From the NCBI GenBank assembly GCA_022984795.1, contig JALIHJ010000061.1, positions 1 to 64,000 on the forward strand: 64,000 nt of DNA, in the 5' to 3' direction. Made by a program: the position numbers and the translations under genes. Below are positions 1-11,067 of the stretch, piece by piece. This stretch comes from Fabrea salina (Eukaryota; Ciliophora; Heterotrichea; Heterotrichida; Fabreidae). How positions within the stretch are numbered: the stretch's first letter is position 1; the number at the start of each line of letters is the position of its first letter. Under the pieces are notes generated by a model. It did no database searches, was not told the origin of the DNA, and saw nothing but the letters and a program-made list of their open reading frames with translations.

Positions 1-590
1 ACTTAACTAGAATTTATCTATTGTAAAATTTATATCCGACATGTAGTTTGAATTTTTCATTTTTAAGCGTGTTTTTAAGTCCTTGTGTTGGTCTTTAGAA
101 ACTTTTATGTTTGAAAAAGACTCAGACATCTATAGAGTTATCCAGTTTTTGGTCCCATAAGTTCGTGTTCAACTGCCTGGAAGAAGTTATTAACTGAATG
201 AATCAACAATTCAGTGAGTAACCAAGACCCAGAGTTCAGGAGGGTAGTCACTTTCGACTGTAGATATCTGAGTCTGTTCTAATCCACTAAAGAGCATAGT
301 GACTCTGAGCTCCTAAGGAATTAATCGAGTTAAGCTTTGGGTGTTTGATGCTTAATCATTAATCCCAAACTAAATTCTAAGTTGTAGAGTGCTTCTACTG
401 CTGTTCTAGAGCACTCCTACTTAAGACTGATCAGGTCGGTGTTTCCATGCCTTGGCTCAATGAATTCATAAGCGATAGCTAGACACTTCTTCGGTAACTA
501 AAGGATCTTAAACTAGCTAAAGTTCAACCTTCTGTGAGAACTAATTCTAGTTCCTTTAAATTTTTTGTCTTTTCTGGTACTGCCTGATAA
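1..590. other. Gene-free stretch at the left end
   Basis: All frames are stopped often on both strands, so no protein gene is supported. Two small inverted repeats are visible: TTTGGG at 336-341 with CCCAAA at 364-369, and GAGTGCT at 387-393 with AGCACTC at 410-416. I see no tRNA-like T-arm. It is the longest non-coding stretch in a window where gaps are usually under 100 nt. It may be decayed upstream sequence of the broken WD40 gene that follows, or an unrecognised RNA; neither can be shown from the sequence. Confidence 0.6.
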
Positions 591-1254
591 ATGGAACCTA
601 GGCTGATTGTTAGCGGAAGTGAAGATAAGACTGTTAGGATTTGGAGAGAACCAAAGAAACTATTCACCTTTAGAGAAGTGGGTAATCTAAGACCTATTCT
701 CGAGGTGTTTAAGTTCTTGAGTTCTGACGAGGTAATAGGAATTGCAAGAGTCAACAAGCAATTCTATGAAGCCTCCTTCCACTCAGAAATGCCGAAACCT
801 GGGTTCAGACAGACCAAGGTTCTTGAAGGCCATACTGCATGCGTTTGGTCAGTTGCTATGTCTCTGAAGAAAGGGATACTAGTGTCTGCTAGTGATGATT
901 CTACCGTTCGAGTGTGGAGTCTAGTTACTGGGCAAGTAGCCCAAGTACTTCAGGGACATAGTGGTTGGGCATGGTCTGTGGCCATTTCTAGTGATGGCGA
1001 GTGGATTGTGTCGGGGAGTGCAGACAAAACACTTAGAGTGTGGAGTCTAGCTTCTGGGCTAACCACTCTAGTACTCAATGGCCATAGTCATTATGTTAGG
1101 TCAGTGGCCATTTCTAGCAAGGACCAATACATCGTCTCTTGTAGTTGGGACAATACACTTAGGGTGTGGAGTCTAACTACTGGAGAAGTGGTTAGAGTCC
1201 TTATAGGCCATAGTGATTGTGTCGAATCAGTGGCCATTTCAAAGACAGACCAAT
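591..1254 (+). pseudogene. F-box/WD40-repeat protein, 5' part of an interrupted gene
   Basis: The frame opens with the second half of a WD blade (VSGSEDKTVRIW), then an F-box-like helix pair (about residues 37-60: NLRPILEVFKFLSSDEV), then at least three full WD40 blades with GH...WSVAIS...VRVWSL signatures repeated about every 123-126 nt. The last blade stops mid-strand at SKTDQLY, exactly where the hairpin at 1255 begins; the frame then runs only to a stop at 1302-1304. The missing downstream blades resume near 2272 in another frame. F-box/WD40 proteins are normally SCF ubiquitin-ligase receptors; this copy looks non-functional in this molecule. Confidence 0.75.
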
Positions 1255-1303
1255 TATATGGCGGGTGGGTGGGCCTTTTTTTTTTAAGGCCCACCGCCAT
1301 ATA
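1255..1303. repeat. Hairpin at the left edge of the insert
   Basis: The left arm TATATGGCGG (1255-1264) plus GTGGGCC is mirrored by GGCCCACCGCCATATA ending at 1303, with a 4-5 nt bulge and a T-rich loop. The perfect TATA ends on both arms and the location exactly at the junction suggest it belongs to the insertion event. No partner copy is seen at the right edge. Confidence 0.7.
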
Positions 1304-2271
1304 GGGGGTTGGGGTGTTAGGGGGGTAAAAATTCCCTAATGAAAATTAGTGGACTTTTATAGGGAGAAAGTGGGGGGAATTAATAGATAAGGGGTTGATA
1401 AGATGTCAGGGAGAGTAGGCCAGGCTGCTGAGCCCTTTCGGCGTCCATCTTTGAGCGGGAGCTTAAGTGCAGTAGACCCAACAGGTGGCAATTCTGACGA
1501 CCCCCAACCGCAACTTCAACAGACCCCAGGGGAGGAACCACCTACAGAGGGAGTTAACACCCCCAACATAGGGCTTTTGGGAGAGCGCAACTACGAAGCA
1601 GAGTCGGAAAGGAGTTACTCAGTGGGTGACAACGTAAGGCAGATTGAGGAGTTAGGGCCAATAAACTCGGCACTGCTGCAGCTAATGTTTGAGTGGGAGG
1701 AAGGCAACGAAATTGTGATCCCGACTCCAGAGCAAGAGATAGTGTGCAACTTCAGAATCTGGAACGTGCACGAAGTCCCAAGTAAGCTAGTGGAAGAACT
1801 CAACAAGCAGGTGCCTGACATAGTTTGTATGCAGGTAGACCAAGGAGAAGTCAAGAAGCTGGTTGAAGGCAGTGAGTGGCAATGTCTAGCAAGCCCGGAG
1901 ACTATACCCTTTATGCTGCTATCTCCAGAGTGGGCAGTGTCGGACTTTTTCTACGAAGGAGAGTCAGTGCAGGTGGCAAGGGTGTTTAACCACCGAATGA
2001 GTGTGTGGGTAGTTAACTTGGCACTCAACTCTCCTTACGCTGCACTCAAGAGGAAGCTTTGGGAGGACCTTCCACTCAAGCACAGCGAGCAACTGAAAAC
2101 CCAACTCCCTAAAGTCCTGCAGTGTTGTTTGGAAGACTTTGTGATTGTGACTGGAAATTTAGAGTGCTTAGAAGGAGATATGCACTTCCACTGGGTCAAG
2201 TCCTTTGCAGAGCAGCATAACCTGTGCGACTTCGCCACTACAGCTAGGTTCGAAGAACATAAAAAGGTGAA
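1255..2271 (+). other. About 1-kb insert splitting the WD40 gene
   Basis: WD40 coding sequence stops at about 1254 and resumes at about 2272. Between them lies sequence of different texture: a hairpin, G-runs (about 1304-1325), a short AT-rich stretch and a reading frame with visibly higher G+C than its neighbours. No target-site duplication is evident. Compared with the preceding blades, about 11 codons of host sequence are missing at the junction, which points to replacement or repair-type joining rather than clean transposition. A retained internal eliminated segment or a captured fragment are alternatives. The exact right edge is uncertain by about 10 nt. Confidence 0.6.
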
Positions 2272-2320
2272 ACCATTAGAGTGTGGAGTCTCACTTCTGG
2301 AGAAACTACTCAAGTACTAG
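1403..2320 (+). CDS. Degenerate EEP-fold reading frame carried by the insert
   Basis: 305 residues. The first 60 or so are Pro/Gln/Gly-rich and disordered. From about residue 115 the pattern of an endonuclease/exonuclease/phosphatase domain appears: FRIWNV (117-122), PDIVCMQV (138-145), VVNLALN (203-209), VIVTGNLE (247-254). Against the canonical LQE, NTHxD and GDFN motifs, the metal-binding and catalytic residues are replaced (E to V, H to A or L, D to N, N to E). The domain lacks its last SDH motif because the frame runs across the right junction at about residue 290 and ends in out-of-frame WD40 sequence. It is thus 3' truncated and probably inactive. A non-LTR-retroelement endonuclease fragment or a captured host EEP gene are both possible; no reverse transcriptase is present. 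Confidence 0.45.
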   Translation: MSGRVGQAAEPFRRPSLSGSLSAVDPTGGNSDDPQPQLQQTPGEEPPTEGVNTPNIGLLGERNYEAESERSYSVGDNVRQIEELGPINSALLQLMFEWEEGNEIVIPTPEQEIVCNFRIWNVHEVPSKLVEELNKQVPDIVCMQVDQGEVKKLVEGSEWQCLASPETIPFMLLSPEWAVSDFFYEGESVQVARVFNHRMSVWVVNLALNSPYAALKRKLWEDLPLKHSEQLKTQLPKVLQCCLEDFVIVTGNLECLEGDMHFHWVKSFAEQHNLCDFATTARFEEHKKVKPLECGVSLLEKLLKY

Positions 2321-2469
2321 AAGGACACACTGGATGGGTACTTTCAGTCAATATAGCAAGTGATGACAAGTACTTGGTGTCTGGAGGTGGCACTAGAGAC
2401 AATTCAGTGAGAGTTTGGGACCTCTCTACAGGCCATACTCATAATGTATGGTCAGTCAACTTAATTTAA
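2272..2469 (+). pseudogene. WD40-repeat protein, 3' part of the interrupted gene
   Basis: Coding similarity resumes at TIRVWSLTSGE and gives one clear blade (VLEGHTGWVLSVNIASDDKYLVSG...NSVRVWDLSTG). The next blade is damaged: STG is followed directly by HTHNVWSVNLI, so the QVVRVLxG segment expected in front of GH is absent, and a stop follows at 2467-2469. Its frame differs from that of the 5' part, and no ATG of its own precedes the blade. It is best read as the decayed tail of the gene that starts at 591. Confidence 0.7.
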
Positions 2470-2476
2470 TTCTCGA

Positions 2477-2710
2477 TTAACTTGCTGAATCTAGCTTCTG
2501 AGTAAGTTTCTTTTGGTTCTGCATGAACCTTCCTTTGGTAGTTTTCTTCTGAGCAGCAATTCCGTCCAGTTCCACTTGTATCTGCTGGAGTTCTTTTATG
2601 AGTTCTTCGTAATTGCTAGTTCTTGCTTGGACTTCTTCTAAAGAAGCCCTAAGTTCTCTTTTTTGCTTCACATTTCGCTCTACGCGACGGGATTGGTTAA
2701 GGGAATGCAT
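2477..2710 (-). CDS. Small coiled-coil protein
   Basis: 77 residues, highly charged, rich in Lys/Gln/Glu and predicted by eye to be one long helix (heptad-like run from about residue 12 to 70, including YEELIKELQQIQVELDGI). No catalytic or metal-binding motif and no family I can name. It starts 6 nt downstream of the RPL13A stop on the same strand, with no intron signature between them, so it is treated as a separate gene and not an RPL13A tail. The ATG sits in a TAAATATG context typical of this window. Confidence 0.6.
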   Translation of the reverse strand: MHSLNQSRRVERNVKQKRELRASLEEVQARTSNYEELIKELQQIQVELDGIAAQKKTTKGRFMQNQKKLTQKLDSAS

Positions 2711-2716
2711 ATTTAG

Positions 2717-3322
2717 TTAGTGACCGAGTTCCTTGAGAGTTTCCAGAACAGGACCCAAAGCACTGCCTTTAAGTCTTTCTTCGACTTCTTCTTTCTGTTT
2801 TTGATCGTCAAGTTTCTTCTGGTACCAAGCTTCGCTTCTTTCCTTGCGCTCTTTTTCTAGCCGTTCAATCACAGCCTTCTTCTTCCAGCCAACTTTTTGT
2901 GCAAGTTCACCAAGCACTGTAAACTTCCTGCCAGGCTGAAGGCGGGCTACGCGCAAAGCGTCTGGCACTACCATTTTCTTCTTTGTGTCGTAAGGATGAG
3001 GCACTCCGTCAAATACTGAAAGTCTGGCCAATGCAGCTTCGCCACGGGCTGTTTTGCGGGGAACCATACCTCTCACTGCTTTGAAAAACATCATTGAAGG
3101 AGAGCGCTGGTGGAAGGGTCCTTTTTTGGGTTGGGTGTTTTTACGCTTGCGTAGGTAGTTCATGAAGTTAATGCGATTCCTAAAGATATGGCCTGAAATG
3201 TTCAGCTCTTCGCAACGGACTACTGTGATTTTTTGTCCTGCCAAGAGTTCTTTGGCTACTATGGAGGCCAATCTTCCTAGTAAGTGTCCTCTGCCGTCCA
3301 CCACAATCTCTTTCTTGAACAT
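2717..3322 (-). CDS. RPL13A: 60S ribosomal protein L13a (uL13)
   Basis: 201 residues, the usual eukaryotic size. It contributes to the large ribosomal subunit near the exit side. The uL13 signature is clear: [13 protein letters not shown] near the N-terminus, [19 protein letters not shown], then [15 protein letters not shown] and the conserved GVPHPYD stretch at about residues 132-138. The C-terminus is the eukaryote-specific charged helix ([27 protein letters not shown]). The start codon lies in ATATAAATATG, giving an AT-rich box directly against the ATG. Neighbouring genes are unrelated. Confidence 0.96.
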
Positions 3323-3397
3323 ATTTATATATTGCTTTTGGCCTTCACCAGGACTTTTAGCGACCAGAGCATATCACTTAGATTAAATTTAGATTAC

Positions 3398-6300
3398 TTA
3401 GTTTCTTCCTTGTTTCTTTTTCCTTTCGAGTTCTTCTTGCATAGGGATTAAGTACCCCACTGCTTTCATTACTTCGATTCTTTTTTCTTCTTTTCTCAAG
3501 AAAGGAAGGTACACCAAGAAGAACAACAGCATCGAAGTCACTCCGTAGGCTATTGTGAACACCATCATTCCTTGCAGCTCTTTTTCAATCAGGTTGTCTG
3601 ACTCTGAGTTAGCTATTTCGAATGTTAGTTCAGTTTGGTTCCTGATTTCTTTGTTGTAGTTGTGGAGAGTTACGAAGTGCTCTAGTTGCTCTATTCCTGA
3701 AATAGCTACTGAGTTGGAGTAGCTTTCTAGTATTGACAAGTAAGCACTGTAAAGTCCTTTTTTGAGCTTAGGTACTTCTTCTGGTTGGATTGTTTCAAAC
3801 AGTCTGGTTTTTGTTTGCTCGCCTATTTGGTCTTTGATGTTTTTTTGGTGCACTAAACTCAAGCGGTCCTTAACCTTTGAGCAAACTTTCAGGTACTCTT
3901 CTACAGGATACTCAAACAGAAATGCGTTTTGTATGTTGTCAGTAATCCCAAAAGGTGTAGAACAAAAAGCAGCCTCAAGTGCCCAAAAGTGAGTTTCCAT
4001 TAGGTAACTTTGAAGGTTTTTATAGTATTGCATGTACAAAGGTCTGCTTTCCAGATAATACTTGCACTGATCATAGAACACAAAGTAAGTCAAAAAGTAA
4101 AAAATGCCAGATAGTCCTACAAAAACTAGCAGTCTTGCTACATAACTCTTCAAAAGGCCTAGGTTCACCTCACTAAACTTCCTTTTTTTTGCATGGATGC
4201 TTTGACCTTCATCTATGTTAAGATCAATCTCACCGTGGATGTCTGAAAGTCTGAGAATAGCAGTTTGTCTCAGTTCGTAGTATACGTTCATACTCAGTTT
4301 CCGCATTTCACGCCAGTAGGTGTTCAGCTTTCTGTTGATTTCAAGACTGCTTCCTGCTAGTATGCAAAAACATACCGAAAGTAGAATAGTTACTACTATC
4401 AGCAAAGTGTTCATAAATGAGTTAAGGTCTCCAACAAAGTCCACATCACACTGTATAAACCCATTTAGGGCTTCGTCTACTTTGTGGAACATGGGACCTG
4501 CTCCGTTAGTTACCACAAAGAAAAGGTTATTGTAGTACTTAGTTGTTCCAAAAGTTGAGTTGCTTAAGCTCCTAGCTTGCTGGACAAACATAGAAGTAGC
4601 ATCTATTAGGTTCATGAACCTGAGTTGGGGAGTGTAGTAGTTCCCCCAAACAGGGACTGAATTTTCTAAGTAAATCTTTGAAGTGGGGCACTCTCTTAGT
4701 TTATCTTCAAAATCTATTTTCATTAGTTCGTTCAAATCATTTGCATATGAAAATATAATTTCATTCAATGAATTTACTGCTAATGGGAGTTTGAGTTTGG
4801 TGTAGATGTCAATCCCTCTAGCGTACGAAGCAGTTTCTATGATCTTTATTTTGAGGTCATTGAAGCTATTCACGCCTTCGAAGCTTTTAGCCCTGTTTAC
4901 TGCTTCTGCAGTGTAAAAAATCATCAGACTATAAGTTGCAAGAACTGATACAATGGAAAAAAACAAAACCCACTTAAACACAGACAAAGATCTCTTGATC
5001 CTTGTGTAGAGCTTTTCGGCAGGCCGAGTTCTAGAGAAAACTTTATTTGAATTTGAAGAGCTAGAAAAACTTGACCCTTTTTGAGAATCAAATAGGTTTT
5101 CTTGTAGTTGTGACTCTGACTGGTGGTGATAAGATCCAACTGTGAATAAAGGTCCTGGCTCGCTTTCATCAAATTTGACTGTGCTTCTTTGTTGCTCAAC
5201 CACATCCATAAAAGACACAGAGTGCATCTCTAGACTTGAGTCTGGCTTTCTTAGGTTCATGTCGACAGACTCTAAAACATCAATTTTGCTAAGAGCTTTC
5301 ACTTCTTCTTTTTCTGATATTACCCAGACAAACTTCATTTTAGAACTTCCAACAGGCACTTCTTTGCTGATGATAGCTAGTCTTTTTCCATTTACCTTCA
5401 AGAAATGGGCTTTGCTTGGGTCTAGTATTGATTCGAAGTCGGGGAACATGCTGGATATGCTTAGGCCTTGGATGTCAGTATCGTAGCCTAGTTTTGTAGC
5501 GAAGTTTTCGCTGTGGCTGTTTATGATGCCTGTTTCTGAAACTATAGCTACTTCTCTTTCGGAATTCATTTCTCTGAACAGGAAACTAAGAATTGGGTAA
5601 CTTTCGAGGGAAATGGCTTTGGAGTACATGGTTATTTCTACCAGGTAGCCTTTGTGGTTCAGAATTGCAAAGTTTTCAGGGAACCTCAGTTTGGGTTGTT
5701 CTGAGTACAGAAGGAACCTTTCTAAGACCTGGTTGTGGAAGGATTCGTAGGGAGGAGGAATCAGTGACTTGAAGTCTGAGCCAAGCATAGTGTCCACTGA
5801 GGTTTCTAGGATGCTGGCTGCTTTGGTGTTGGCGTATATAACAACTCCTAGGTTCTCTGGGTCTGCTGAGATCAGTAAGAGTCCGTTGTCTTTGTCGAAG
5901 AACTTGAGTTTGGAGGAGTACTTGTTGTTTGCACTGTTGTAAGAACTGATTAGTTCTGCCAGTCGAGTGAGTCTGAGGGCTTTTTCGTTGTCAAAGAGGA
6001 TGTCGTTCAGGAAAGACCCGTAGATGTTGCAGACGTCTGGGTTGCTTTTGTTCTGTTCTATCAGTTTTTCAGCAGTTTTCTGGATTTTGCGGATTAGTTT
6101 GTCGACGCTTTTGCTGAGGTTGCGCAGTACTTGGATTTTGGGGTGTGAAGAAGTGAGTTCGCTCCAGAAGTTGATTAGTTGGTGGCAGAGAGCGTTGTCT
6201 CTGTCAGTGACTTTGGAGAGTTTCCAGAGGTACTTGATGTACTCAAGGTCTTCGAAGGTTTTCTTTCCAAAGGCTTGTCTGCAACAGAACTCTTGATACT

Positions 6301-7636
6301 CAGTTTCTAGGTCGCTTTCTTTGCCAATGCACTTCCAAACCTTCAGTCGAGCCAGTCTTTCGTTTTTGAATGCGTAAAGACACAAGTTAGTTTCCCACAC
6401 GTAGAGTTTCTTTTTGTGTCTGAAAGTTGCTTTGTCAAAGCACCTTCCAAAGACTCTAATGAGTTCACTGCGTTGCTCAACAGGGTTGTTAATCAGATAC
6501 TTCCTTATGTAGAGTTCAAAGGTTTCAAGAGACTCTGCTTTGTGGAACTTGCTCTGAATCGAAGCCTCTATCGAGGAGTACCTGTGCTCAAACAGAGTTT
6601 TGAGTGGAACCAAACAAAGCGGAACCACAAAACAAGTCAGCAACACAGTCAAGAAAGCGTTGTCTTGCCAGTAACTCACCACAAAAACCAGTGCTTCCAA
6701 ACCAAGCACCAAAAAACCAGCACACCGCACACAGTTAGTGAAGAATGAGTAGTAGGGCAGGTTCTGCAGGTACTGAACAGCCATGTAGAGTGCAACTACT
6801 GCAACTAAGTTAAGGTGCAAGTAAGGCCTTTCTTCCAAAAGCAACAACTTAGACCCCGAAATCCCAACTACCAACAGTCCTTCCCGAACTCTGTACTTCG
6901 AAGTGCACACTGCAGTTAAGTCTTGCCCAGACAAAGAGTGCCTCATCTCCGAAGTAAAGGTGTGGAAACAAGTGTACAGCCCCAACACCAAAACCAAGTT
7001 CACAGCCAACAACAACCCGTGGTACTCTTTAAGTTCAAAGTCAAAAGTAGTGTACTCAGAAATGTCCACTCTTTTAGTGACTGAGTGACTCAAACCTATA
7101 ACACTGAAACTCACTGCTGGAATAAAACCCACCCCTGCTATGAACTCCAGGGCCTTCGTCAGAGCAAACTTAAAGATGGTGGGAACACTCTTCTTGAAGT
7201 GAACTAAAAGCCCAGTAATGCCCAAACCCACAGTGGTGGAAAAAGTCAACCACAAACTAAAAGATATCCAGAAGTAAGCTGAAGACAAGTAAACCACCAA
7301 CACGTCAAAGTTGACTGTCCGCAAAGCCACCCAAAAGGCAGAGTAAGACTCCCAGCCCTTCATTCCGTAGTCTTCATACCACAGAAAACTCATCATCTGA
7401 AGCGTAAATATAGCGTTTCCTAGCAGGATTTTCAACTTTTGAGTTCCAAAGCTATTCTTGAATTTGTTCTTTGTGGTAGAGAGCGAAAAAAACAGTCTAA
7501 AAATAGGGTTCTTAAGTTTGCTTAAAACCCTCCGAAAGTAGGACGTCTTTCGTTTAATAGATAACAACTTAACCAAAAAAGAAGTATTGCTCGTGCCTTT
7601 ATCCGAAGTCAGCGAATTCATTATATTTATAGCCAT
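3398..7636 (-). CDS. Large polytopic membrane protein with PAS domain, tmcB/tmcC type
   Basis: 1412 residues. The first about 370 hold many hydrophobic spans (about 70-150, 160-225 and on to 370). A cytosolic helical part follows, then a PAS-type sensor domain at about 590-700 (LLISADPENLGVVIYANTKAASIL, later FPENFAILNHKGY), a linker, and four more spans in the C-terminal half (such as VLFFSIVSVLATYSLMIF and MMVFTIAYGVTSMLLFFLVY). This layout is the large ciliate family often named after Dictyostelium tiny macrocysts proteins; its role is unproven, probably membrane sensing. Met6 (7621), preceded by TATAAATATA, is an equally good start. Confidence 0.8.
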   Translation of the reverse strand: MAINIMNSLTSDKGTSNTSFLVKLLSIKRKTSYFRRVLSKLKNPIFRLFFSLSTTKNKFKNSFGTQKLKILLGNAIFTLQMMSFLWYEDYGMKGWESYSAFWVALRTVNFDVLVVYLSSAYFWISFSLWLTFSTTVGLGITGLLVHFKKSVPTIFKFALTKALEFIAGVGFIPAVSFSVIGLSHSVTKRVDISEYTTFDFELKEYHGLLLAVNLVLVLGLYTCFHTFTSEMRHSLSGQDLTAVCTSKYRVREGLLVVGISGSKLLLLEERPYLHLNLVAVVALYMAVQYLQNLPYYSFFTNCVRCAGFLVLGLEALVFVVSYWQDNAFLTVLLTCFVVPLCLVPLKTLFEHRYSSIEASIQSKFHKAESLETFELYIRKYLINNPVEQRSELIRVFGRCFDKATFRHKKKLYVWETNLCLYAFKNERLARLKVWKCIGKESDLETEYQEFCCRQAFGKKTFEDLEYIKYLWKLSKVTDRDNALCHQLINFWSELTSSHPKIQVLRNLSKSVDKLIRKIQKTAEKLIEQNKSNPDVCNIYGSFLNDILFDNEKALRLTRLAELISSYNSANNKYSSKLKFFDKDNGLLLISADPENLGVVIYANTKAASILETSVDTMLGSDFKSLIPPPYESFHNQVLERFLLYSEQPKLRFPENFAILNHKGYLVEITMYSKAISLESYPILSFLFREMNSEREVAIVSETGIINSHSENFATKLGYDTDIQGLSISSMFPDFESILDPSKAHFLKVNGKRLAIISKEVPVGSSKMKFVWVISEKEEVKALSKIDVLESVDMNLRKPDSSLEMHSVSFMDVVEQQRSTVKFDESEPGPLFTVGSYHHQSESQLQENLFDSQKGSSFSSSSNSNKVFSRTRPAEKLYTRIKRSLSVFKWVLFFSIVSVLATYSLMIFYTAEAVNRAKSFEGVNSFNDLKIKIIETASYARGIDIYTKLKLPLAVNSLNEIIFSYANDLNELMKIDFEDKLRECPTSKIYLENSVPVWGNYYTPQLRFMNLIDATSMFVQQARSLSNSTFGTTKYYNNLFFVVTNGAGPMFHKVDEALNGFIQCDVDFVGDLNSFMNTLLIVVTILLSVCFCILAGSSLEINRKLNTYWREMRKLSMNVYYELRQTAILRLSDIHGEIDLNIDEGQSIHAKKRKFSEVNLGLLKSYVARLLVFVGLSGIFYFLTYFVFYDQCKYYLESRPLYMQYYKNLQSYLMETHFWALEAAFCSTPFGITDNIQNAFLFEYPVEEYLKVCSKVKDRLSLVHQKNIKDQIGEQTKTRLFETIQPEEVPKLKKGLYSAYLSILESYSNSVAISGIEQLEHFVTLHNYNKEIRNQTELTFEIANSESDNLIEKELQGMMVFTIAYGVTSMLLFFLVYLPFLRKEEKRIEVMKAVGYLIPMQEELERKKKQGRN

Positions 7637-7734
7637 TCTTAGCTGAATTTTACTAGAATTTTTCTTAGTTGCTGAATTTAAATTACAGCGACAAACTATG
7701 TAATCGCGCTACTAAAGTATAGTTAATTAAATCT

Positions 7735-10332: not shown

Positions 10333-11067
10333 TTAACTTATTAGTACTTTTGTAAAAATAGGGAAATGGTCACTTGCGCATAAGTCTCCTGACCCAATGC
10401 TGTAAAGAACTTCTCCGTTTGTAACTTTGCAGTTTTTAACCCAAATGTAGTCAAAACACCCGTGCTTATCTAGGTCTGCGTGAGTTCCAAACAGTCCGCT
10501 CGGACAGGTAAGTGCGGGCTCTACTCCCTGAGATTCTTTTAAAGCTGAATTAAAGTACTCAGACATGAGGCTGTAGGCTGGAGACCCAGGTATAAAGTTA
10601 AAGTCGCCTGTAACAATCACACACTTCTCCATACAAGGTCTAAGCCACTCTACTAGTTGCTGGACTTGCTCTACTCTAGTGGATTCGTTTAAGTTGTCTA
10701 AGTGCGTATTTATGAACCAAAACTCATTTCCTTGCTTTTCTAGTAAAAGCTTATGGGCAATTCTTAACTTAGAATTGTAAACTAAAGTATCTTCTTCTAT
10801 GACTCTAAAGTTCTTTTCCAACAAAACAGCATTTCCATCAATTCTGAAGTTAGGTTCTGTGTCCTTGAGTTTAGGATCAGGAAGAAAGCTTATTTTCAGT
10901 TCATAGCTTTCTAAACTTAGAACTTCTGAGTTTCCTGAAAAGTTCACTTCTTGGAGTCCTATTAAGTCGGCCTTCAATGAACTAATTGCTTCTTGAAGAA
11001 TATGCTTTCTTTCTTCGTACCTGCAACTTGTATTGAGTATGTTGAAACTGGCTACCTTCACTTCCAT
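10333..11067 (-). CDS. Endonuclease/exonuclease/phosphatase family hydrolase
   Basis: About 244 residues from the preferred start. All signature motifs are intact: ASFNIL near the N-terminus, GLQEVNF, INTHLDN, VIVTGDFNF, and DYIWV...SDHFPI at the end. Magnesium-dependent cleavage of phosphodiester or phosphomonoester bonds is expected; the compact form resembles TDP2/sphingomyelinase/CCR4-type members but the substrate cannot be told. The first possible ATG (11085) lies inside the end of the upstream membrane-protein gene; the second Met (11067), after TAATAATTTA, avoids that overlap and starts right at the domain, so it is preferred. It is a useful active comparison for the degenerate EEP frame at 1403. 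Confidence 0.88.
   Translation of the reverse strand: MEVKVASFNILNTSCRYEERKHILQEAISSLKADLIGLQEVNFSGNSEVLSLESYELKISFLPDPKLKDTEPNFRIDGNAVLLEKNFRVIEEDTLVYNSKLRIAHKLLLEKQGNEFWFINTHLDNLNESTRVEQVQQLVEWLRPCMEKCVIVTGDFNFIPGSPAYSLMSEYFNSALKESQGVEPALTCPSGLFGTHADLDKHGCFDYIWVKNCKVTNGEVLYSIGSGDLCASDHFPIFTKVLIS

Follow-up and report, generated by a model that had tools for sequence, protein, structure and literature searches.

An insert in a WD40 gene of Fabrea salina, possibly one of a family of hairpin-ended subtelomeric caps

Introduction

Near the start of the stretch of Fabrea salina DNA analysed here (the window, 64,000 bp, positions 1-64000 of the 141,210-bp contig C61), the coding sequence of a WD40 gene breaks off inside a blade and is taken up again, in another reading frame, after an insert. 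What is this interrupting DNA, and is it peculiar to this one gene? The preliminary description of the locus saw in it what could be a retained or mis-joined segment carrying a dead EEP domain, on the premise that mobile DNA is normally removed from macronuclear-type sequence. For heterotrich ciliates this premise is too strict. The accessible parts of the Blepharisma genome reports describe non-LTR retrotransposon sequences kept in the macronucleus (PMC9942806, PMC9942856) and many alternative telomere addition sites (PMC9942806), and with these precedents both retained mobile DNA and flexible chromosome ends are to be expected in heterotrichs. Fabrea itself has, on contig C51 (171500-177500, L070), an EEP plus reverse-transcriptase element of non-LTR type inside a Cys-rich gene; its reverse-transcriptase frame runs for 796 codons, there is one in-frame TGA in the EEP match, and the match of the host gene to furin-like repeats lies below the cut-off.

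All cap copies described below were taken from one assembly of Fabrea salina (18.33 Mb, 103 contigs). Genome searches scored the best candidates, so that copy counts are lower bounds, and P values assume independent copies. The assembly is macronuclear-type: the contig ends inspected carry repeats of CACCCTAA, which the accessible part of the Blepharisma report gives, as a permutation of CCCTAACA, for the telomere unit of that heterotrich (PMC9942806). Long open frames are obtained with the standard code. The start of C61 is without these repeats, and its first 57 bases equal a stretch that precedes the telomere directly at the opposite end of C61 (L025); this start is therefore probably an assembly break in subtelomeric-type DNA.

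Results

Anatomy of the interrupted gene and its insert

The 5' part of the WD40 gene (591-1254, plus strand) holds four WD40 stretches and is cut in a blade after the residues DQ; its frame is open from stop to stop over 591-1304, with WD40 character ending at 1254. WD40 coding resumes in the third frame near 2264-2272 (open frame 2263-2469), and the tail at 2264-2469 (plus strand), made up of the end of one blade and the last blade with its stop at 2467-2469, is common to contig C64 along with the insert. The two frames agree with the break at 1254 and the restart in another frame that had been described for this gene. Codons have indeed been lost between them, though not the eleven or so first counted: about 8-9 are missing by eye, assuming that both flanks belong to one blade, and 51 when the translation is compared with that of the intact paralogue located at the opposite end of C61. 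Similarly, the label F-box/WD40 holds for its second half, the F-box match of the N-terminus being marginal (Pfam E 0.022, below cut-off).

At its left edge the insert shows AT followed by a terminal hairpin (1253-1303, plus strand; arms 1255-1275 and 1286-1303 with a T-run loop between). The DNA fold of 1251-1403 has an energy of -22.9 kcal/mol (z -5.2), equalled by 0 of 200 shuffles. The hairpin passes into a G-rich stretch (1304-1323, plus strand) with GGTGTTAGG, part of the telomere repeat and readable in 14/14 copies, and its G-runs contain GGGGTGTTAGGG, which overlaps the telomere unit of the genome; the TATA-ended hairpin and the G-runs noted earlier are thus both borne out. Together with what follows they form a leader whose core of about 120 bp (1255-1374, plus strand) is common to all 14 copies found, some 158 bp being common with the copies of cap type A described below.

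Beyond the leader lies a cargo frame of cap type C, which runs from an ATG over 1403-2320 (plus strand; about 289 codons up to the junction) and then out of frame into the WD40 tail, within a 309-codon frame at 1391-2320. The longest frame inside the insert, 291 aa, is above all 1000 dinucleotide shuffles (maximum 225), and its GC content by codon position (0.59/0.37/0.55) differs from that of the WD40 part (0.51/0.45/0.39), in keeping with the earlier impression of a reading frame of different composition. Further along the window, a gene for ribosomal protein L13 (2717-3373, minus strand) adjoins a 1436-codon frame (3398-7708, minus strand) with a TmcB-type TPR match and a weak, sub-cut-off PAS match.

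The cargo frame and the EEP question

The dead EEP domain read into the cargo frame found no support in profile searches with Pfam, NCBIfam and PF03372, which left the frame unmatched. No Pfam family was found for the open frame at E ≤ 1 or for its domain at E ≤ 10, no NCBIfam model matched the domain at E ≤ 10, and phmmer against PDB sequences gave no match at E ≤ 10. A genome search with PF03372 (E ≤ 1) returned 21 places, 19 of them over the cut-off, which include C61:10366-11052 and not the insert. The AlphaFold model of the cargo, built from the single sequence, was unusable (mean pLDDT 37; 0 Foldseek matches at E ≤ 0.001, best E 0.23). Because an EEP-like spacing can be seen by eye (WN, PDIVCMQ, VIVTGN), the frame may still be a very diverged EEP relic.

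Two possible sources of the cargo were rejected. The first, derivation from the EEP gene at 10333-11067 of the window, had been put forward as a local origin and comes down to a lone match of 25 residues (E 0.010, from one comparison). The second is the C51 element, to which the best match has E 0.75 by blastn and 0.81 by tblastn. Reverse transcriptases (RVT_1) occur at 6 places in the genome, none of them on C61 or at a cap position. No phage relatives were found by blastn against phages, and no relative in viral contigs by the hairpin pattern; for the protein, 1 stretch in viral and 18 in prokaryote contigs fit a pattern, and none was confirmed. Within the genome, the only other copy found of the cargo frame is that in C64. 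Nine sites differ between the two, 5 of them synonymous and 4 nonsynonymous, which is too small a number to assess selection. We consider the frame probably to be a coding relic.

A leader repeat with one exact left end

Queried with the insert, the genome gave 14 places, with full-length matches at C61 and C64 and matches to the first 120-164 bases at 12 others; a leader repeat of about 120-150 bp is thus found 14 times, as a lower bound, in 18.3 Mb. The 21-nt hairpin arm, with up to 3 mismatches allowed, returned 14 matches, all exact, and the reversed control 0. A leader query free of the hairpin led back to these 14 places; no copy found lacks the left end. All 14 copies start at one and the same base, and this shared exact left end speaks against a single retained or mis-joined segment, although retention of eliminated DNA may still play a part. 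The left arm (1255-1275) is identical in 14/14 copies, columns 3-25 are invariant in the 14-row alignment, and over leader columns 3-124, with the T-run masked, identity is 93-100% in the 16 pairs compared; C55 gives the lowest value (98/105 against C28), and C101 reaches 102/107.

The right arm was then used to look for a second hairpin end. Among the 18 matches (control 2), 13 belong to the right arms of copies already known, 12 of them with 0-1 mismatches and that of C101 with 3, the arm of C23 being missed; the other 5 have 3 mismatches. The 14 hairpin-arm matches are all left ends, and a second defined end, with inverted repeats, was not found in these searches. The edges of cap A, read by eye as AT/TATATGG on the left and /TACTTGG on the right (slashes mark the edge), have at most 1-2 bases in common; no clear target duplication was found.

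Right parts of the copies

What follows the leader varies. Type A is present at C25, C28, C19 and C18, where 651 bp are 100% identical and are followed by a WD40 last blade that starts, by eye, where in the blade the left joins also fall; C81 carries type A cut by telomere repeats. The 144-aa frame of cap A was found (E ≤ 0.01) in those four contigs only and has sub-threshold matches only, the best to Ubie_methyltran (E 0.004, 17 of 20.1 bits).

Type B, at C20, C36 and C15, has about 180 bp of leader and type-specific sequence, then part of a Cys-rich gene; a 69-bp query of the B-specific sequence found these three contigs only. What follows in the cap is the final ~212 codons of this gene, of which longer versions occur elsewhere. 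Its frame has seven relatives at 96-99% protein identity that match from residue 6 only, with open frames of 563-567 codons in six and 316 in C14, then three relatives at 55% aligned from residue 1, and more distant ones after these (31 rows); the junction was inspected against three of the seven close relatives. The B copies are 96.8-100% identical over positions 118-2315 and 89-91% over 2316-3540. An ATPase_2/AAA-like gene region lies 3' of the Cys-rich gene in all three (L017, L018, L020), and it looks as if it had changed faster than positions 118-2315. The gene matches ATPase_2 over the cut-off (E 3e-11) and TniB below it (E 8e-4, 19.3 of 22.4 bits), the latter of which we take as general AAA similarity. 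An apparent excess of conservation in the leader over its own cap (C36 against C15, binomial 2e-4 relative to the whole B body) was gone on binning, which gave 99.1% for the leader, 96.8-98.5% from there to 2315 and 89.6% in 2316-3540.

The B leaders of C36 and C15 agree at 99.1%, and that of C20 is 92-93% identical to both. Despite its B cap, the C20 leader equals that of C61 in 110/111 columns (T-run masked), against 106/115 for C36, to which the following 2.2 kb are 98-100% identical. Such a mosaic, resting on few alignment columns, would hint weakly at exchange inside the leader.

Type C, at C61 and C64, consists of the cargo and the WD40 tail; the two copies are 98.9% identical over 1236 columns, beginning a little to the left of the leader, with unrelated left flanks that belong to different genes. 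In C34, C23 and C101 telomere repeats begin at the end of the leader, and in C81 within cap A. Right parts are thus shared across copies with differing left flanks, and in the window a type C cap with its WD40 tail splits a WD40 gene that has no assembled telomere nearby. No transposase or HUH protein (Rep/helicase) was found over the Pfam cut-off in the frames of C, A and B or in the ATPase gene of cap B, and the cap copies look degenerate, unlike an intact autonomous element.

Might the variable right side be the work of development? A germline transposon could be eliminated imprecisely, keeping its left end and losing its right side by variable deletion, end joining or telomere addition. 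The passage of four copies to telomere repeats at different points of leader or cap fits this, as do, in the accessible parts of the Blepharisma reports, the alternative telomere addition sites (PMC9942806) and the eliminated elements (IESs) of the germline, about three-quarters of which are TA-bound and some of whose repeat families are palindromic, possibly MITE-like (PMC9942856). However, identical right junctions are found in 4 contigs for type A, 3 for type B and 2 for type C, which makes them inherited or copied rather than fresh somatic cuts, and a cut at TA would, by eye, leave the WD40 frame of the window unrestored. We therefore hold imprecise elimination to be rather unlikely.

Placement in the genome

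Thirteen of the 14 copies lie within 6.5 kb of a contig end, a zone that makes up about 7% of the total sequence (P ~2e-14, assuming independence). Twelve point outward, and all 12 lead into telomere repeats, the first 16-mer of which comes 124 to 5894 bases from the hairpin; the C55 copy is interior and the C61 copy points inward. A search for the WD40 gene gave 77 matched stretches from the 40 scored of 184 candidates. Among the 40 best matches, 21 could be placed relative to a contig end; 21/21 are at most 20 kb from it and 19/21 are outward, the exceptions being the gene of the window itself and a copy on C9. Since WD40 matches themselves are near ends and mostly outward, location and orientation of the cap copies are largely explained by their targets. 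This large WD40 family near contig ends comes with two N-terminal halves, one F-box-like and one short, Cys-rich and with a coiled coil (e.g. L025, L012, L017), which suggests domain swapping at chromosome ends.

Left flanks and junctions

The left neighbour is a WD40 gene in 11/14 copies, cut at nearly one place of the 126-bp blade. Ten of these flanks match the WD40 part of the window (C61 itself, C25, C19, C18, C34, C23, C20, C36, C55 and C101), and C15 is flanked by another WD40 gene (Pfam WD40 E 7.7e-19). The left flanks of C64, C28 and C81, read from translations, are Cys-rich/coiled-coil genes without a WD40 blade; the N-termini of the C64 and C81 genes, and of the gene at the other end of C61 (L025), match no Pfam family over the cut-off. 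From the GH codon to the conserved start the distance is 47 nt in C61, C19, C18, C36 and C101, 46 in C25 and C15, 45 in C55, 43 in C34 and 41 in C20. C23 is without the GH marker, and its distance to a second marker is 20; the value for this marker is 20-21 in six other copies and 17 in C34. That eleven sites should fall by chance in a 7-nt window of 126 has a probability of 2.8e-13 (about 5e-12 for the ten measured), assuming independence. The blade that is cut is the fourth in C61, C25, C19 and C18, the third in C23, C20, C36 and C101, the second in C34 and the first in C55.

In the 42 columns beside the junction, the 12 same-blade pairs compared (6 fourth, 6 third) are 76-93% identical, with no consistent rise of identity toward the junction; different-blade pairs, C15, C55, C34 and the non-WD40 copies were left out of this comparison. 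With flanks at 76-93% while four caps share 651 bp at 100%, one defined end has been joined independently to diverged genes, and the joins compared are independent and exact on the side of the repeat. What the sequences show is thus one exact left end, repeated exact joins to already diverged genes, a strong site preference, with 11 joins at one small WD40 blade region, and right parts common to copies in different left contexts.

Ordinary subtelomeric recombination, with the leader as an old spacer, arms swapped by homologous exchange and no mobile end, has several points in its favour. There is a large WD40 family to recombine (77 stretches from the 40 scored of 184 candidates), its placeable members lie near contig ends (21/21), right arms are shared, and the C20 leader may be a mosaic. 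Yet the divergence of 7-24% is there already in the first 42 columns, with no fading within the WD40 homology of the 12 pairs, and this sharp identity step makes it less likely that the joins arose by homologous recombination within WD40; moreover, the same left edge occurs in non-WD40 genes. We find this explanation quite unlikely.

Let us consider, alternatively, that the leader is the reverse transcript of a small RNA, representing the minus strand of the leader with the hairpin at the 3' end, copied onto broken ends. Priming at the RNA 3' end would give a fixed hairpin edge and a variable other side, and the minus strand has beside the hairpin, by eye, a telomerase-template-like 12-mer, CCCTAACACCCC, in 11/14 copies, its core CCTAACACC being readable in 14/14. 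It is this sequence that makes a telomerase-RNA version attractive, and rodent telomerase RNA at breaks offers a precedent in the available part of the report on TERC-ITS (PMC2246262). On the other hand, Rfam gave no family for positions 1-4000 of the window at E ≤ 1, a comparison that does not take in Fabrea's own telomerase RNA. The genome searches gave no 15th copy that might be the RNA gene, cap B holds kilobases that include intergenic DNA, and the cargo stands in the plus sense. The small-RNA account is improbable on this balance. An assembly chimera at the start of C61 is hardly credible, for although that start lacks a telomere, repeats 57 bp from beside the other telomere of the contig and matches C64 at 99%, which could mislead an assembler, the same left edge is found at 13 other places, 12 of them then leading to telomere repeats.

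Discussion

We propose that the insert belongs to a family of subtelomeric caps whose hairpin end is transposon-like and favours WD40 blades, a reading that we consider about as probable as all its competitors taken together. What stands of the preliminary description is foreign, mobile-looking DNA that splits a WD40 gene in macronuclear-type sequence; its dead EEP domain found no support, and the insert is not a one-off. A cap would consist of the exact hairpin end (AT followed by TATATGGCGGGTGGGTGGGCC), a leader of about 120-150 bp with the telomere-like G-rich stretch, and a variable right part, which may be of type A, B or C or may be telomere repeats at once. A transposase-like or site-specific activity perhaps cuts at the hairpin end and joins this end to the WD40 site. 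Since there is a telomere on the distal side, joining the hairpin end alone might suffice to provide the receiving chromosome with a new terminus. Arms may later be swapped by recombination in the shared leader, and distal parts that are lost may be healed by telomerase on the G-rich leader.

A stronger form of this proposal is that of a mobile chromosome end. Here a single hairpin terminus would attack a fixed codon position of the WD40 blade, move the whole telomere-bearing arm and replace the receiving end, one-ended transposition being viable because the other end is a telomere. We lean against this form, while regarding it as a serious, tentative possibility.

Several known systems resemble the caps in part. 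Telomere-attached retroelements, HeT-A/TART and the Athena elements/terminons of bdelloids, have a defined inner edge, a variable outer part and telomere repeats beyond. Caps likewise have their inner edge toward the chromosome interior, a variable outer part and the telomere beyond, but no reverse transcriptase was found in them, cap B comes with host genes and intergenic DNA, and there is the bias for WD40 blades. Trypanosome VSG genes form exchangeable, telomere-proximal terminal cassettes bounded by 70-bp repeats, and caps similarly have a short conserved leader upstream of exchangeable telomere-proximal cassettes; however, the leader begins inside broken genes at one base, and the cap cassettes look degenerate. 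The TERC-ITS of rodents, proposed in the accessible part of their report to mark repaired breaks, share with caps a telomere-like stretch in a short insertion at many loci (PMC2246262), whereas caps have a single fixed outer edge, coding cargo and arms that form chromosome ends, and Rfam gave no telomerase RNA for positions 1-4000 of the window. In Blepharisma the palindromic MITE-like IESs, as far as the available text of their report describes them, are also short palindromic elements with TA at the edge in a heterotrich (PMC9942856); caps differ in being present in a macronuclear-type assembly, in having one defined edge and in that removal would, by eye, leave WD40 codons missing in the window. 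Lastly, non-LTR retrotransposons with EEP and reverse transcriptase, such as that on C51, are like caps mobile DNA retained in a heterotrich macronucleus, from which the insert is set apart by having no reverse transcriptase, no supported EEP domain and no similarity. A hairpin-ended cap targeting WD40 blades is not named in the titles and abstract openings of the literature searched, in which subscription journals are thinly covered.

If the proposal is true, Fabrea could renew or exchange its chromosome ends by a route other than telomerase alone or a telomeric retrotransposon, and the turnover of its large WD40 family would be tied to somatic chromosome ends. The cap repeat may then also serve as a heterotrich marker for the amount of mobile DNA that escapes elimination.
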